This document shows, one piece after another, positions 2,108-25,916 of a DNA stretch of 64,000 nucleotides (its first letter is position 1; each line of letters opens with the position of its first letter). The notes under the pieces are model-generated. The model did not search any database, was not told where the DNA came from, and worked only from the letters and a program-made list of their open reading frames with translations. Source of the stretch: Acidimicrobiales bacterium (lineage in GTDB: Bacteria; Actinomycetota; Acidimicrobiia; Acidimicrobiales; Iamiaceae); the NCBI GenBank assembly GCA_035547835.1, contig DASZTW010000005.1, positions 372,001-436,000 on the forward strand, in the 5' to 3' direction. The position numbers were made by a program, and so were the translations under genes.

Positions 2108-2899
2108 ATGTCCGCGCTGCTCGAAGTTCGCTCGATCAACGTGCACTTCGGCGGGAACTACGCCGTCCGCGATGTCGACCTCGCCGTTGACGCGGGATCG
2201 ATCGTGGGCCTCATCGGGCCCAACGGCGCCGGCAAGACCACCACGTTCAACGTGATCACCGGCTTGCAGGATGCCTCCAGCGGTCACGTCGCGTTCGACG
2301 GGCAAGATCTCACCAACCTCCCGACCCATCAGCGGGCGCGGCGCGGGATCGCCCGCACGTTCCAACGGCTCGAGCTGTTCGGCTCAATGACGGCGTTGGA
2401 AAACGTCCAGACCGCCGCGGAGATCCACCGCACGTGGTCCCGCGATCGCACCGAGCCCCGCGACGCCGCGCTCGCGGCGCTCACCCGCGTCGGCCTGCAC
2501 GCGCAAGCCGATCAGCGCGTCGACGCCATGCCCACCGGCCAGGCACGGCTCGTGGAGCTCGCCCGCGCCCTCGCCACCCAGCCCCGCCTGCTGCTGCTCG
2601 ACGAACCGGCTTCCGGCCAAGACGAAGCCGAGACGGAGTCGTTCGGCGAGCTGCTCGGCGAGCTGGCGGCCGAAGGCATGGCGATCCTGCTGGTGGAGCA
2701 CGACGTGCCGCTGGTGATGCGCGTGTGCGCGCAGGTCTACGTCCTGGACTACGGCGCCATCCTCGCGAGCGGCACGCCCGAGGAGGTCCAGCGCAACCCA
2801 GCTGTGCTCGACGCGTACCTCGGCGCCGCGGTCGAGGATTCGTCGCTCCGGCGGACCGAGGAAGCCCGAGCGCACGAGCTGACGGGCCCGCAGCCATGA
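2108..2899 (+). CDS. livG: Branched-chain amino-acid ABC transporter ATP-binding protein LivG
   Basis: One of two cytoplasmic ATPases that drive the importer. It has 263 aa; Walker A is GPNGAGKTT (residues 37-45) and Walker B is LLLLDEPASG. The LivG-type motif GIARTFQ lies between them. The ABC signature is degenerate (MPTGQARLVELARAL instead of an LSGGQ-like loop; LivG proteins usually read PYGQQRRLEIARAL). A strong Shine-Dalgarno (GGGGGGAG) precedes the chosen ATG. Its stop overlaps the livF start (ATGA). It is divergent from livK-livH. Confidence 0.88.
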   Translation: MSALLEVRSINVHFGGNYAVRDVDLAVDAGSIVGLIGPNGAGKTTTFNVITGLQDASSGHVAFDGQDLTNLPTHQRARRGIARTFQRLELFGSMTALENVQTAAEIHRTWSRDRTEPRDAALAALTRVGLHAQADQRVDAMPTGQARLVELARALATQPRLLLLDEPASGQDEAETESFGELLGELAAEGMAILLVEHDVPLVMRVCAQVYVLDYGAILASGTPEEVQRNPAVLDAYLGAAVEDSSLRRTEEARAHELTGPQP

Positions 2900-3606
2900 C
2901 GGCCACCCCAGCCCTCGAGCTGAAAGGCATCCGGGCCCGGTACGGGTCGATCGAGGTGCTCCACGGTGTCGACCTCGTCGTCCCGGCCGGCTGCGTGGTG
3001 GCGTTGTTGGGACCCAACGGAGGCGGCAAGTCCACGACCTTGAAGGTCGTCAGCGGTGAGATCAAGGCCACCGACGGGTGCGTCCACGTCGCGGGCCGCC
3101 ACGTGAACGGCGCAGGCGCGGCCGAGCTGGTGCGGGCCGGAGTGTGCACGATCCCCGAAGGCCGCGGCATCTTCCCGAACTTGACCGTGCGCGAGAACCT
3201 CCACATGGCGACGTACGCCGGGCGGGGGCTCGCCGAAGTCGAGAGCAGCGCGTACGACCAGTTCCCGCGGCTGAGCGAACGCCGCAGCCAACTCGCCGGG
3301 ACGCTCTCGGGCGGCGAGCAGCAGATGCTCGCGCTGGCCAGGGCACTGAGCACCAACCCGTCGCTGCTGCTGCTCGACGAGCTGTCGATGGGCTTGGCGC
3401 CGTTGATCGTGGCCGAGCTCTACGAGCGGGTGGCCGAGGTCGCCCGCCAAGGCGTGTCGATCCTGGTGGTCGAGCAGTTCGCCCGCACCGTCCTCGGCGT
3501 GGCCGACTACGCCGCGATCATGCTGCACGGCCGGATCGTCGACGTTGGCCAGCCCGCCGACCTCGAAGAAGGCCTGTCGTCCGCCTACCTCGGCTCGACG
3601 ACCTGA
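2896..3606 (+). CDS. livF: Branched-chain amino-acid ABC transporter ATP-binding protein LivF
   Basis: Second ATPase of the importer, 236 aa, normal for LivF. Walker A is GPNGGGKST (residues 39-47). The signature is [15 protein letters not shown], followed by the LivF hallmark [16 protein letters not shown]. The ATG overlaps the livG stop by 4 bp, which decides the start. The codons further upstream in this frame are antisense-like noise inside livG. Confidence 0.9.
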
Positions 3607-3662
3607 GTCACACCAGCACCAGGGCCGGTCCGCCCTCCGGTGCGATCGACGCCGCGCGCCGC

Positions 3663-3668
3663 TACCGT
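3663..3668 (+). promoter_or_regulatory. Candidate -10 of msrB
   Basis: TACCGT lies 8 nt before the msrB ATG with no Shine-Dalgarno between them. This fits a leaderless transcript. No convincing -35 is visible. Confidence 0.4.
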
Positions 3669-3676
3669 CGCGGGCG

Positions 3677-4078
3677 ATGACTGATCGCAAGACCTTTGAC
3701 GACGCCGAGCTGCGCGAGCGGCTGACCGCACTTCAGTACGAAGTCACCCAACGGGCCGGCACCGAGCAGGCGTTCACCGGCGAGTACTGGGACAACCACG
3801 ATCAGGGCGAGTACCGCTGCATCGTGTGCGACACGCCGTTGTTCCGCTCCGACGCCAAGTTCGAGTCGGGCAGCGGTTGGCCCAGCTTCTTCGAGGCCCT
3901 CGACCCCGAGCGGGTCGAGATGGTCGAGGACCGCTCGCACGGCATGGTTCGCACCGAAGTGCGCTGCGCCACCTGCGGCGCCCACCTCGGCCACCGTTTC
4001 CCCGACGGCCCAACGCCAACCGGTCAGCGCTACTGCATGAACTCGGCCAGCCTCTGCTTCATCGGCGACGACAGCTGA
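3677..4078 (+). CDS. msrB: Peptide-methionine (R)-S-oxide reductase MsrB
   Basis: Repairs methionine-R-sulfoxide in oxidised proteins, in the cytoplasm. It has 133 aa, the usual size. Visible are two zinc CxxC pairs (CIVC and CATC), the SGSGWPSFF motif, [10 protein letters not shown], and the catalytic RYCMNS with Cys120. The start at [12 protein letters not shown] is chosen because the family begins here and a -10-like hexamer sits just upstream. It stands alone between livF and the methyltransferase. Confidence 0.95.
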
Positions 4079-4165
4079 CCGTCCCGACGGCCTGCTCGCC
4101 GCGCGCCGGGAGAACCGACGCCTCAGGCGCCGACCGGACCGGCACATCGCGCTCGGGGCGGTCGG

Positions 4166-4171
4166 TAGGGT
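4166..4171 (+). promoter_or_regulatory. Candidate -10 of the methyltransferase-P450 pair
   Basis: TAGGGT ends 6 nt before the ATG at 4178, with no ribosome-binding site in between. This is consistent with leaderless expression. Confidence 0.45.
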
Positions 4172-4177
4172 CACGGC

Positions 4178-5155
4178 ATGGCTGACCGTACCGACGGGGG
4201 GTTCCTCGGCGACGCCCGGCGGGCGGGGCGGCGGGCGCTGCTGCACACCCGCAACCGGCTGCGCCCCACACCGCCCGACCCCGCCGCTTGGCACGCAGGC
4301 TTGTCGGACCGCGCGTTCGTCGACATGGCCTACCAACGGATCCTCCAGCGCCCCGTCGACGAAGGCGGCCGCGCTTCATGGCTCCAACAGCTCTCCGACG
4401 GTCGCACCCGCGCCGAGGTGGAGGCGCTGCTCGAGCACTCGACCGAGGCGGTCGACGGCGCCCGCGCCCGAGCCGCGCTCGAGGCGTTCCACAGCGGTCG
4501 CGTCACGTGGATGCGCAGCCTCCCCCCGGCGAAGCGCATCCTGGACCTCGGCGGCACCGCGCTCGGATCCGACCACGGCGCGCTGCAGGTGATGGGCTAC
4601 CCGTACGACTTCGCCGAGCTGACGATCATCGAGCTTCCCGTCGATGCACGCCACGAGCTGTACCAGGTGCCGGAAATGAAGTCCGTCGACTCGCCACACG
4701 GTCCGGTCCACTACCGGTACCAGTCGATGACCGAGCTGTCGAACCTCGCCGACGGCTCCTACGACCTCATCTGTTCAGGCCAGACGTTCGAGCACATCAC
4801 CGCGGAGGAAGGCCGCGGGCTGCTGCACGACGTTCGTCGGCTGCTCGCACCGGGCGGCTTCCTCGCGCTCGACACACCAAACCGGGCGATCACCGAGATC
4901 GAGTGCCGGCAGACCGGACTTCCGTTCATCAACCCCGATCACAAGATCGAGTACACCCACAGCCAGATGCTCGAGCGGTTCGCCGAGGCGGGCCTCGAAG
5001 TCGTCCGCTCGCACGGCATCGGCTACATGCCCACCACCGCGACCACCGGCGCGTTCGTCCGCGACGAGCTCATCGAGCATCCCACCCTCTACGCCGACAT
5101 CGAGCGCTGCTACACGCTCGCGTATCTCGTACAGGCCAAGCCGGCGACGCAGTGA
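4178..5155 (+). CDS. DUF4214-like domain plus class I SAM-dependent methyltransferase
   Basis: Residues about 45-95 (AYQRILQRPVDEGGRASWL) resemble the DUF4214 module found in surface-layer and glycan-related proteins. The rest is a class I methyltransferase: motif I is RILDLGGTALGS (with GG in place of GxG), and motif IV is near DLICSGQTFEHI, followed by LLAPGGFLALDTPN. It has 325 aa. The substrate is unknown; methyltransferases with this leader are often linked to glycans or small molecules. The stop overlaps the P450 start (GTGA), so the two are probably co-translated and may act on the same molecule. Confidence 0.75.
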   Translation: MADRTDGGFLGDARRAGRRALLHTRNRLRPTPPDPAAWHAGLSDRAFVDMAYQRILQRPVDEGGRASWLQQLSDGRTRAEVEALLEHSTEAVDGARARAALEAFHSGRVTWMRSLPPAKRILDLGGTALGSDHGALQVMGYPYDFAELTIIELPVDARHELYQVPEMKSVDSPHGPVHYRYQSMTELSNLADGSYDLICSGQTFEHITAEEGRGLLHDVRRLLAPGGFLALDTPNRAITEIECRQTGLPFINPDHKIEYTHSQMLERFAEAGLEVVRSHGIGYMPTTATTGAFVRDELIEHPTLYADIERCYTLAYLVQAKPATQ

Positions 5156-22883: not shown

Positions 22884-23699
22884 TCAGCCCTCCGGGTCGA
22901 CCAACCCGCGCAACCCGTCCGCGCCGAACACAGGCTCCAGCGCCGCCCGCAGATCGGGGCCACGGCGGACGGTGTGGCCGCCGTCGACGGCGATGTTCTG
23001 ACCGGTCACCCACTCGGACTCGGTCCCGAGCAGGAACAGCGCCGCAGCCGCGATGTCGGCGGGCTTGCCGACCCGCGACACCGGCATGCACTCCAGGTAG
23101 TCCTCGAGCACGGGCCCGCCGACCGTGATGAACGACACCAGATCGGTGTCGACCAGGCCGGGCTGGATGGAGTTCACCCGCACGCCGCTCGCACCCAGCT
23201 CGTCGGCAGCCGCGCGACACAAGTGGTCGATGCCGGCCTTGGCCGGGCCGTACGCGCCGAACCAGCGGTGCGTCAACGGCGACGCGATCGACGAGATGCC
23301 GACGAACGACCCGCTGCCTTGGCGAGCCATCTGGCGCCCGGCGTGCTTCAACGTGAGGAACGTGCCCGTGACGTTCAAGTCGAGCGTGCGACGGAAGGCC
23401 TCCACGTCGATCTGCGTGATCGGACCGATCGTCTCAGACCCCCCGGCCGACGCGACCACACCGTCGAGCCGGCCCGTCGCCGCGGTGGCGGCCGCCACCG
23501 CGGCGACCACCGAAGCTTCATCGGTGACGTCCACGACCACGTGCCGTGCGCCGATGCGCTCCCCCGCTTCGACCAGCCTCGACTCGGTGCGACCGCCGAT
23601 GGTGACCGTCGCTCCGGCGGCGACCAGCGCTTCGGCACAGCCCAAGCCGATCCCGCTGCCGCCGCCCGTGACCAACACGTTGAGTCCGTTCACTCCCAT
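22884..23699 (-). CDS. SDR family NAD(P)-dependent oxidoreductase
   Basis: Classical short-chain dehydrogenase/reductase, 271 aa. The cofactor loop is TGGGSGIG (11-18). VVASAGGSETIG takes the place of NNAG, the catalytic Ser lies in the IVGISSIASP-like strand, and YGPAK gives Tyr-x3-Lys, followed by VNSIQPGLVDTDL. It is probably an alcohol or 3-ketoacyl-type oxidoreductase of unknown substrate. It is divergent from the MFS-TetR gene, 63 bp away, and could be under that regulator's control. Confidence 0.88.
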   Translation of the reverse strand: MGVNGLNVLVTGGGSGIGLGCAEALVAAGATVTIGGRTESRLVEAGERIGARHVVVDVTDEASVVAAVAAATAATGRLDGVVASAGGSETIGPITQIDVEAFRRTLDLNVTGTFLTLKHAGRQMARQGSGSFVGISSIASPLTHRWFGAYGPAKAGIDHLCRAAADELGASGVRVNSIQPGLVDTDLVSFITVGGPVLEDYLECMPVSRVGKPADIAAAALFLLGTESEWVTGQNIAVDGGHTVRRGPDLRAALEPVFGADGLRGLVDPEG

Positions 23700-23762
23700 G
23701 GGTCGTGCACGGTAGCTCGATCATCACCGGCACCCCACCGCTCGGGCTGGTTGACTCGGGCC

Positions 23763-25916
23763 ATGTCAGACGCAGCTGTCACGCCTGATCCGCGGCGCTG
23801 GTGGATCCTGGCCGTGCTGTGCGTGAGCCTGCTGATCGTCGGCATCGACGGCACGATCGTCAACGTCGCGCTGCCGTCGTTCGTCCGCGAGCTCGGCGCC
23901 GGGTCGAGCGCGCTGCAATGGATCGTCGACGCGTACACGCTCGTCTTCGCCAGCTTCCTGCTCCTTGCAGGCAGCCTCGGCGACCGCTTCGGTCGCAAGA
24001 CGGCGCTCACGGCGGGCCTTGTCTTGTTCGCGGCGGGCTCGCTCGCGTCGGCCTGGGCGGGCACGCCAGGCGTCTTGATCACCACCCGTGCGCTGCAAGG
24101 TTTCGGCGCCGCGTTCATCATGCCGTCGACCTTGTCGATCCTGACGAACTCGTTCGACGCGCAAGAGCGCGGGCGGGCGATCGGGATCTGGGCCGGGGTA
24201 TCGGGCCTCGGCGTGGCGATCGGCCCGATCACCGGCGGCTGGCTGTTGGGCCACTTCTGGTGGGGCTCCGTCTTCATGGTGAACATCCCGGTCATCGCCA
24301 TTGCCTTGGTGGCCGGAGCGCTCCTCGTCCCGAACTCCCGAGACCCCGACGCGCCACCGATCGACTACGCGGGCGCGCTGTTGTCGGTCCTGATGCTGCT
24401 CGCGCTGCTGTTCGGGATCATCGAAGGACCGAGCAAGGGCTGGACGGCACCGTCGATCGTGGCGGCCTTCGCAGCAGGAGCCGTGCTGCTGGCCGTGTTC
24501 GCCTGGTGGGAGCAGCACGTCGAGCACCCGCTGCTCGACGTGTCGTTCTTCGCGGACGCCAGGTTCTCGGCCGCGTCGATCGCCGTCACCTTGGTCTTCT
24601 TCGCCATGTTCGGGTCGATGTTCTTCCTCACCCAGTACTTGCAGTTCGTGCTCTCGTACGACGCGCTGCAGTCCGGCATCCGGCTGTTGCCGATCGCCGG
24701 CGCGCTCATGGTCGCCGCGCCGCTGAGCTCGCGGCTGGTCGCCCTCGCCGGCACCAAGATCGTGGTGACGTTCGGCCTGCTGCTCGTGGCAGCCGCCATG
24801 GCGATCATGTCGCTGGCCACGACATCGAGCGGGTTCGGCCTCGTCGCCATCGTCTTGGTGGTGATCGGCCTCGGCATGGGGTTCGCGATGGCCCCCGCCA
24901 CCGACTCGATCATGGGCTCGCTGCCACCCGAGAAGGCCGGCGTCGGCAGCGCCGTCAACGACACCACACGCGAAGTCGGCGGCGCGCTCGGCGTGGCGAT
25001 CCTGGGCTCCATCACGGCCGGCGTGTACCGCCACAAGGTCACGGAGTCACCGATCTTCGCCGTGGCGCAAAAGCAGTCGCCGGCGGGCGCGGCGGCCATC
25101 AAGGACTCGGTCGGCGCGGCAGCCGAAGTGGCCAAGCACCTCCCGGCCAGCGCTGCCAGAGTGCTCACGGACGCCACCAACGCGGCTTTCGTGCACGCGC
25201 TCGACCGCACCGTGCTGGTGGGAGCCGGCGTCGCGGTGCTCGGGGCGATCGTGGCGGCGGTGTTCCTTCCCGCTCGTCCGGCCATCGAAGCGACCGGCGA
25301 GGAAGCGTACGGCGAGCTGATCGCCCAGACCGCCCGCCACTTGCACGCCGACCCTCGACGACGGCGCGACGTGCTCGGCGCCGTGCTCCAAGCCCTCACC
25401 GAAGCGGGGTTCTCGAGCCTCACGTTCCATGGTGTGGCCACTCGAGCCGGCATCAGCACCGAGTCGATCGACCGCTACTGGGGATCGAAGGTCGACCTGG
25501 TGGTCGACGCGCTCACCTCGATCGTGGCCGACCGATCCGTCCCCGACACCGGCACGTTCCGCGGCGACTGCACGCAGTACCTGCGCGAGCTCGCGGCCGG
25601 CCTCACCGATCCGCGCCTCGCTCCCGCCATCGCCGGGCTCATCGGCGAAGCGTCCCGCGACCCGGAGCTCGCGCACGAGTTGCGGGAGCGGCTGGTCGGA
25701 CCTCGCCGGCGCGACATCATGACGATGATCGACCGCGCCGACGCGCGCGGCGAGATCATCACCCCCGTCGACCGCACCGTGTTCGCCGACATGTTGTTGG
25801 CGCCGCTCGTCTACCGCAGCATCATCGCCGGAGAACCCCTCGGCACGGTGGTGGCCGACGACATCATCGACGTCGCGCTGTCGGGCACCGTCCGCACCAC
25901 CCCATCCAGCCCCTGA
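23763..25916 (+). CDS. EmrB/QacA-type (DHA2) MFS efflux transporter fused to a C-terminal TetR regulator
   Basis: A 717-aa protein. Residues 1 to about 505 are a drug:H+ antiporter with about 14 helices; motifs VNVALPSF, GDRFGRK (motif A) and a motif C-like GPITGGWLLG are visible. Without any stop or gap the frame continues into residues about 515-717. That part contains a TetR-type helix-turn-helix (VLGAVLQALTEAGFSS, GVATRAGISTESIDRYW) and a TetR-like ligand/dimer domain. Such a product would be a membrane-tethered repressor that could sense the pumped drug. The alternative is a sequencing or stop-loss fusion of two once-separate genes. The ATG at 23763 has no clear Shine-Dalgarno. Confidence 0.85.
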   Translation: MSDAAVTPDPRRWWILAVLCVSLLIVGIDGTIVNVALPSFVRELGAGSSALQWIVDAYTLVFASFLLLAGSLGDRFGRKTALTAGLVLFAAGSLASAWAGTPGVLITTRALQGFGAAFIMPSTLSILTNSFDAQERGRAIGIWAGVSGLGVAIGPITGGWLLGHFWWGSVFMVNIPVIAIALVAGALLVPNSRDPDAPPIDYAGALLSVLMLLALLFGIIEGPSKGWTAPSIVAAFAAGAVLLAVFAWWEQHVEHPLLDVSFFADARFSAASIAVTLVFFAMFGSMFFLTQYLQFVLSYDALQSGIRLLPIAGALMVAAPLSSRLVALAGTKIVVTFGLLLVAAAMAIMSLATTSSGFGLVAIVLVVIGLGMGFAMAPATDSIMGSLPPEKAGVGSAVNDTTREVGGALGVAILGSITAGVYRHKVTESPIFAVAQKQSPAGAAAIKDSVGAAAEVAKHLPASAARVLTDATNAAFVHALDRTVLVGAGVAVLGAIVAAVFLPARPAIEATGEEAYGELIAQTARHLHADPRRRRDVLGAVLQALTEAGFSSLTFHGVATRAGISTESIDRYWGSKVDLVVDALTSIVADRSVPDTGTFRGDCTQYLRELAAGLTDPRLAPAIAGLIGEASRDPELAHELRERLVGPRRRDIMTMIDRADARGEIITPVDRTVFADMLLAPLVYRSIIAGEPLGTVVADDIIDVALSGTVRTTPSSP

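Follow-up and report, generated by a model that had tools for sequence, protein, structure and literature searches.

An in-frame fusion of a DHA2-type drug exporter with a TetR-like domain that has probably lost DNA binding

Drug:H+ antiporters of the 14-helix DHA2 type, among them QacA, EmrB and LfrA, carry to our knowledge no TetR domain, and the regulators QacR and LfrR are encoded by separate genes. Where a TetR repressor controls a drug pump, its ligands are often substrates of that pump. Membrane-bound regulators of the HigX, BcrR and CadC type join a DNA-binding-type fold to membrane helices; in these proteins the membrane part anchors the regulator or acts as its sensor, and the fold still binds DNA. 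The kinase CbrA carries an SLC5-type transporter part. The protein described here shares with QacA, EmrB and LfrA the fold and length of the whole exporter half, and with the TetR_C_11 regulators found beside MFS pumps the ligand domain family, gene neighbourhood and phylogeny; unlike those free regulators, the fused form lacks the recognition-helix Lys/Arg, the Tyr and the operator. In contrast to the HigX, BcrR and CadC type, its membrane part is a complete exporter and, judging from the residues present, its DNA contacts are lost. Like CbrA it holds transport and signalling parts in one chain, but the transporter family and the regulator are different and no signalling output is evident. 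We found no earlier report of an MFS-TetR fusion in the literature searched, a scope outside which preprints and most subscription journals fell.

The fused gene lies in a 64,000-nucleotide stretch of an Acidimicrobiales genome (contig DASZTW010000005.1), the whole of which we call the window. It runs in a single stop-free frame on the forward strand from an ATG at 23763 to a TGA at 25914-25916, and its 717-residue product begins with an intact DHA2/QacA-EmrB-like exporter of 14 helices and ends with a complete TetR-like domain. The features are as follows.

23700-23762, no strand: gap to the divergent SDR gene, without the 22-bp palindrome discussed below (operator scan, palindrome against shuffles)
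23763-25262, plus strand: exporter half, residues 1-500, MFS antiporter of DHA2 / EmrB-QacA type (MFS_1, TIGR00711, QacA fold)
25263-25370, plus strand: linker past the last membrane helix, residues 501-536 (AF2 model, start-codon scan)
25371-25517, plus strand: TetR_N-like helix-turn-helix region, residues 537-585 (Pfam TetR_N, AF2 helices)
25449-25490, plus strand: recognition segment GISTESIDRYWGSK, residues 563-576 (comparison with free relatives)
25458-25460, plus strand: codon of T566, which replaces the helix-start Lys/Arg (alignment with free relatives)
25470-25472, plus strand: codon of D570, which replaces the recognition-helix Tyr (alignment with free relatives)
25539-25874, plus strand: TetR_C_11 ligand-binding / dimerisation domain, residues 593-704 (Pfam, AF2 model)

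Over residues 16-498 the exporter half matched TIGR00711 (NCBIfam, EmrB/DHA2) at 286 bits, above the curated cut-off of 230, and over residues 19-410 it matched Pfam MFS_1 at 183 bits; its best-scoring NCBIfam match was LfrA, though far under the LfrA cut-off. The AF2 model (pLDDT 89.9) shows 14 membrane helices with the QacA fold, Foldseek returned QacA as the best match (TMt 0.87), with QacA 7y58 as the nearest solved structure, and the characteristic exporter motifs GIDGTIVNVALP, GSLGDRFGRK and GVAIGPITGG appeared intact by eye. By family score and predicted fold, the exporter half is a DHA2 (14-helix) MFS drug exporter of the EmrB/QacA type. The preliminary description of this locus had read it in the same way, as one unbroken polypeptide over 23763-25916 in which a complete TetR helix-turn-helix and ligand domain follow a 14-helix DHA2/EmrB-type exporter, and on these points our results agree with it.

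Within the TetR half, the TetR_C_11 domain (residues 593-704) scored 101 bits against a cut-off of 32 and was modelled with pLDDT mostly about 90, keeping the TetR fold; the closest solved chains are 2zb9 and 2fq4. TetR_N was barely recognised at residues 542-581, with 25.0 bits against a cut-off of 24, a weakness that proved informative; in the AF2 model this region has helices at residues 555-562 and 566-572, and pLDDT is about 60-85 over the helix-turn-helix. In the sequence and the AF2 model alike, this helix-turn-helix fold is covalently joined to the 14 membrane helices in one frame. Measured against the TetR family, the window protein has both TetR_N (marginally) and TetR_C above the Pfam cut-offs and lacks the recognition-helix Tyr and the basic helix-start residue, and no ancestral-type operator lies upstream of the pump at the window locus. 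Residues 508-523 of the linker have pLDDT below 50. Internal initiation yielding a free repressor was rejected, as the linker holds no in-frame start with a ribosome site that is conserved across the fusions, and two of the fused genes (L086 and L087) have none beyond residue 516.

The same one-frame architecture occurs at L084/L004, L086/L114, L087/L115 and L117. Counting a further copy split over two contigs, the fusion is present in the window and in five other genomes of the same class, six genomes in total. A family search found L004/L084 (genome G011) to be 54% identical to the window protein over residues 8-706, and a junction search of named genomes placed L086 in the Acidimicrobiia MAG Chersky_534 and L087 in the Actinomycetes MAG RYN_53. 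In genome G006 the fusion is broken by a contig end, with one fragment (L036) stopping within the MFS part and a second (L085) beginning in the last helix and continuing into TetR. A junction profile run over 395 genomes of the class returned G913 and G870, which are the L086 and L087 sequences again, and the sixth fusion, G788/L117; 396 genomes sampled from the phylum were searched with a profile at E<=1e-28 and yielded no junction-spanning fusion beyond the window's own. The fusion is rare and, as far as sampled, restricted to this class. Two plasmid candidates were set aside: in H1 (S. chartreusis), the strongest of those on plasmids, the pump and TetR parts lie in different frames, and H14 likewise carries no fusion.

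The junction might be an assembly or sequencing artefact, as most of the related genomes are metagenome-assembled and fragmentary, and the unfused pump and TetR genes are very closely spaced. We rejected this explanation, which we regard as extremely unlikely, because the same in-frame fusion occurs in independent assemblies at 60-64% identity and thus in six genomes. The preliminary description had proposed a search for the same two-domain architecture elsewhere and had named, as evidence against the fusion, a stop or frameshift at the junction or separate genes in close relatives; neither a stop nor a frameshift was found in any of the six fusions, and the architecture is present in the five other genomes, in one of them split over two contigs.

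It had further supposed that pump and regulator are normally separate, divergent genes. Separate they are, but the unfused relatives we scanned are mostly co-directional, with the TetR gene just downstream of the pump in 52 loci and divergent in only 7, and in many tandem pairs the TetR start lies no more than tens of bases from where the pump gene stops. The fused rows group together as a single clade in the MFS-half tree (SH-aLRT 99 for five rows; FastTree 0.96 for six), as they do in the TetR-half tree (0.99, six rows), and the branching is largely similar between the two. On this phylogeny the fusion is of single origin, joining a DHA2-type exporter gene to a TetR_C_11-type repressor gene directly downstream in an ancestral operon, and a single event within the tandem pair, either stop-loss or a deletion, would explain it most simply. 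At L118-L123, L033 and L136, an in-frame TAG that is conserved across several species of one genus separates an unfused pump from its TetR gene, and readthrough would yield the fused architecture. We rejected these loci as stop-codon readthrough intermediates and treat them as ordinary tandem genes, as a TetR start follows shortly past the TAG and the recognition helix is canonical. The window's own genome also holds an ordinary tandem MFS-TetR pair (L056, C5 774977-779518) with a canonical recognition helix and, at -89, a candidate operator scoring 24.5 bits; this pair is a ready-made internal control.

A search for palindromic motifs in the 220 nt ahead of the pump gene at 43 tandem loci, evaluated by four-fold cross-validation against a 99% shuffled null, recovered a common 22-bp palindrome, TACGAAACGGTACCGTTTCGTA, upstream of unfused pumps. 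It was present in 40 of 43 held-out tandem promoters (median score 19.0 vs a 99% null of 9.7) and in none of the six fused promoters, which scored -7.6 to -0.6, the sequence available for L117 being only 162 nt long; the window pump scored at best -0.6 in its 220 nt upstream (99% null 9.7). Unfused sister pumps at L061-L063 keep the palindrome at 21-24 bits, which places the loss of the operator on the fused branch. Those three loci have no relative of the tandem TetR downstream of the pump, and in L061 and L062 its upstream side holds an SDR gene together with a different TetR gene. The palindrome also stands upstream of the MFS gene in L064, L066, L071, L106 and most other tandem loci, and the 40 of 43 loci that carry it span Actinomycetota and one Chloroflexota MAG. 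It is probably an autoregulatory site shared by a large group of regulators, and this 22-bp candidate operator offers a way into the regulon of a large and apparently unstudied set of actinobacterial pump-repressor pairs.

At the DNA-binding surface, 88 of 88 distinct free relatives have the recognition-helix Tyr and none of the six fusions does; E takes its place in four, D in the window and Q in one. At the helix start, 84 of 88 free relatives carry Lys/Arg, and every one of the six fusions carries Thr. Across the 14 residues of the recognition segment the fusions have a net charge of 0 to +1, as compared to a mean of +3.8 (range +2 to +5) for 51 free relatives, and the fused clade conserves a new motif, G[IV][SG]Txx[LI][EDQ]xxWxS[KR]V. 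The two changed positions are equivalent to R44 and Y48 of the TetR protein MtrR, in which R44A leaves DNA binding undetectable and Y48F abolishes specific DNA binding (PMC8053128). Both Y48D and R44Q are named among clinical MtrR substitutions, Y48D also among resistance alleles (PMC8053128). The corresponding residues of CprB contact bases, but there single Ala mutants left DNA binding almost unaffected and only the double mutant was affected (PMC4150764). Collectively, these comparisons suggest that the fused TetR domain probably no longer binds DNA. Because the six fusions form one clade, the residue loss and the operator loss each amount to effectively a single evolutionary observation.

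The TetR half has nonetheless been retained. Between L086 and L087, the closest fused pair and the only one for which pN/pS is informative (other fused pairs being near saturation), pN/pS was 0.21 for the MFS part, 0.18 for the helix-turn-helix and 0.39 for TetR_C. Between the window and the other fusions, identity is 31-40% in the TetR half vs about 60-64% in the pump half. By these substitution ratios the TetR domain is retained under constraint, and in the closest fused pair the constraint on the helix-turn-helix region matches that on the pump. A domain retained without its ancestral operator would therefore be kept for something other than that operator.

We consider it reasonably likely that a downstream repressor was fused once into the pump and now acts as a non-DNA-binding, cytosolic accessory module of the exporter. 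The C-terminus of a 14-helix DHA2 exporter is cytosolic, so the TetR domain would hang on the cytosolic face by its short linker, and a TetR domain supplies a dimer interface and a ligand pocket. In the proposed sequence of events, an exporter gene and the repressor gene downstream of it in an ancestral tandem operon merged into one frame, the former repressor stopped binding its operator in the fused clade, and it came to work as a module of the pump. In its most likely role, the ligand pocket would sense a cytosolic substrate or capture it and hand it over; in addition or instead, the dimer interface may pair two exporters. Since contacts and DNA site are lost yet the domain is conserved, it probably serves the pump itself. 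More tentatively, the repressor may have become a built-in, non-DNA-binding substrate sensor, with transcriptional control giving way to direct allosteric control of transport or to substrate hand-over. If true, this would be a natural case in which control left gene expression and passed to the transporter, and the fused clade would provide a directly testable model of regulator co-option. Against the accessory-module reading stand the tolerance of CprB for single Ala changes at the same two positions (PMC4150764), a different DNA target that could exist elsewhere in the genome, and the strong helix-turn-helix conservation, which can also be read as retained but changed DNA binding.

That last reading would make the fusion a specificity switch, in which the acidic residue and Thr recognise a new operator at another genomic site and the pump may act as the sensor. 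The constraint on the helix-turn-helix region, equal to that on the pump in the closest fused pair, and the conserved new motif are both consistent with it. We nevertheless find it unlikely: no palindrome common to the six upstream regions was found, and an acidic residue in place of a DNA-contacting Tyr is unfavourable, MtrR Y48D being among the resistance alleles (PMC8053128). The preliminary description had instead envisaged a membrane-tethered repressor whose binding to nearby DNA, perhaps at the 23699-23763 gap before the SDR gene, would make transcription depend on the occupancy of the pump. Membrane-bound one-component regulators such as HigX and BcrR do exist (PMC13384398), the fused clade keeps the helix-turn-helix fold and conserves its sequence, and CprB tolerates single changes at these positions (PMC4150764). 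This proposal nevertheless fared poorly, and we judge it quite unlikely, as both key DNA-contact residues and the 22-bp ancestral operator are gone in six of six fusions, the charge of the recognition segment has fallen from about +4 to 0 or +1, and the 23700-23762 gap holds no palindrome above chance (56 of 60 shuffles were as good). The SDR gene is not a neighbour at the other fused loci read, and regulation of that divergent gene was rejected on this ground. A decaying passenger, in which loss of a stop codon fused the genes and a useless repressor drifts, kept only because its loss destabilises the pump, would account for the faster evolution of the TetR half. Such drift is quite improbable in view of a frame open in six lineages across several families, the low pN/pS of the closest pair in both TetR regions, and replacements that are concerted and conserved rather than random; the accessory-module reading remains the one we favour.

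Gene neighbourhoods, named here from reading translations and not from a family search, share no neighbour among the window, L084 and L086/L087 surroundings. The window gene is flanked by the divergent SDR gene and an alpha/beta hydrolase gene, and L084 (genome G011) by a ParA-like gene and by another, distinct DHA2 pump gene (L084:2953-4587), which starts 6 nt past the stop of the fusion. At L086 and L087 the neighbours are leuC-leuD and a small gene; the fused gene (2519-4672 in both) lies about 58 nt downstream of this group in the same direction, an arrangement in which it may be co-transcribed with the leuCD genes of leucine biosynthesis.
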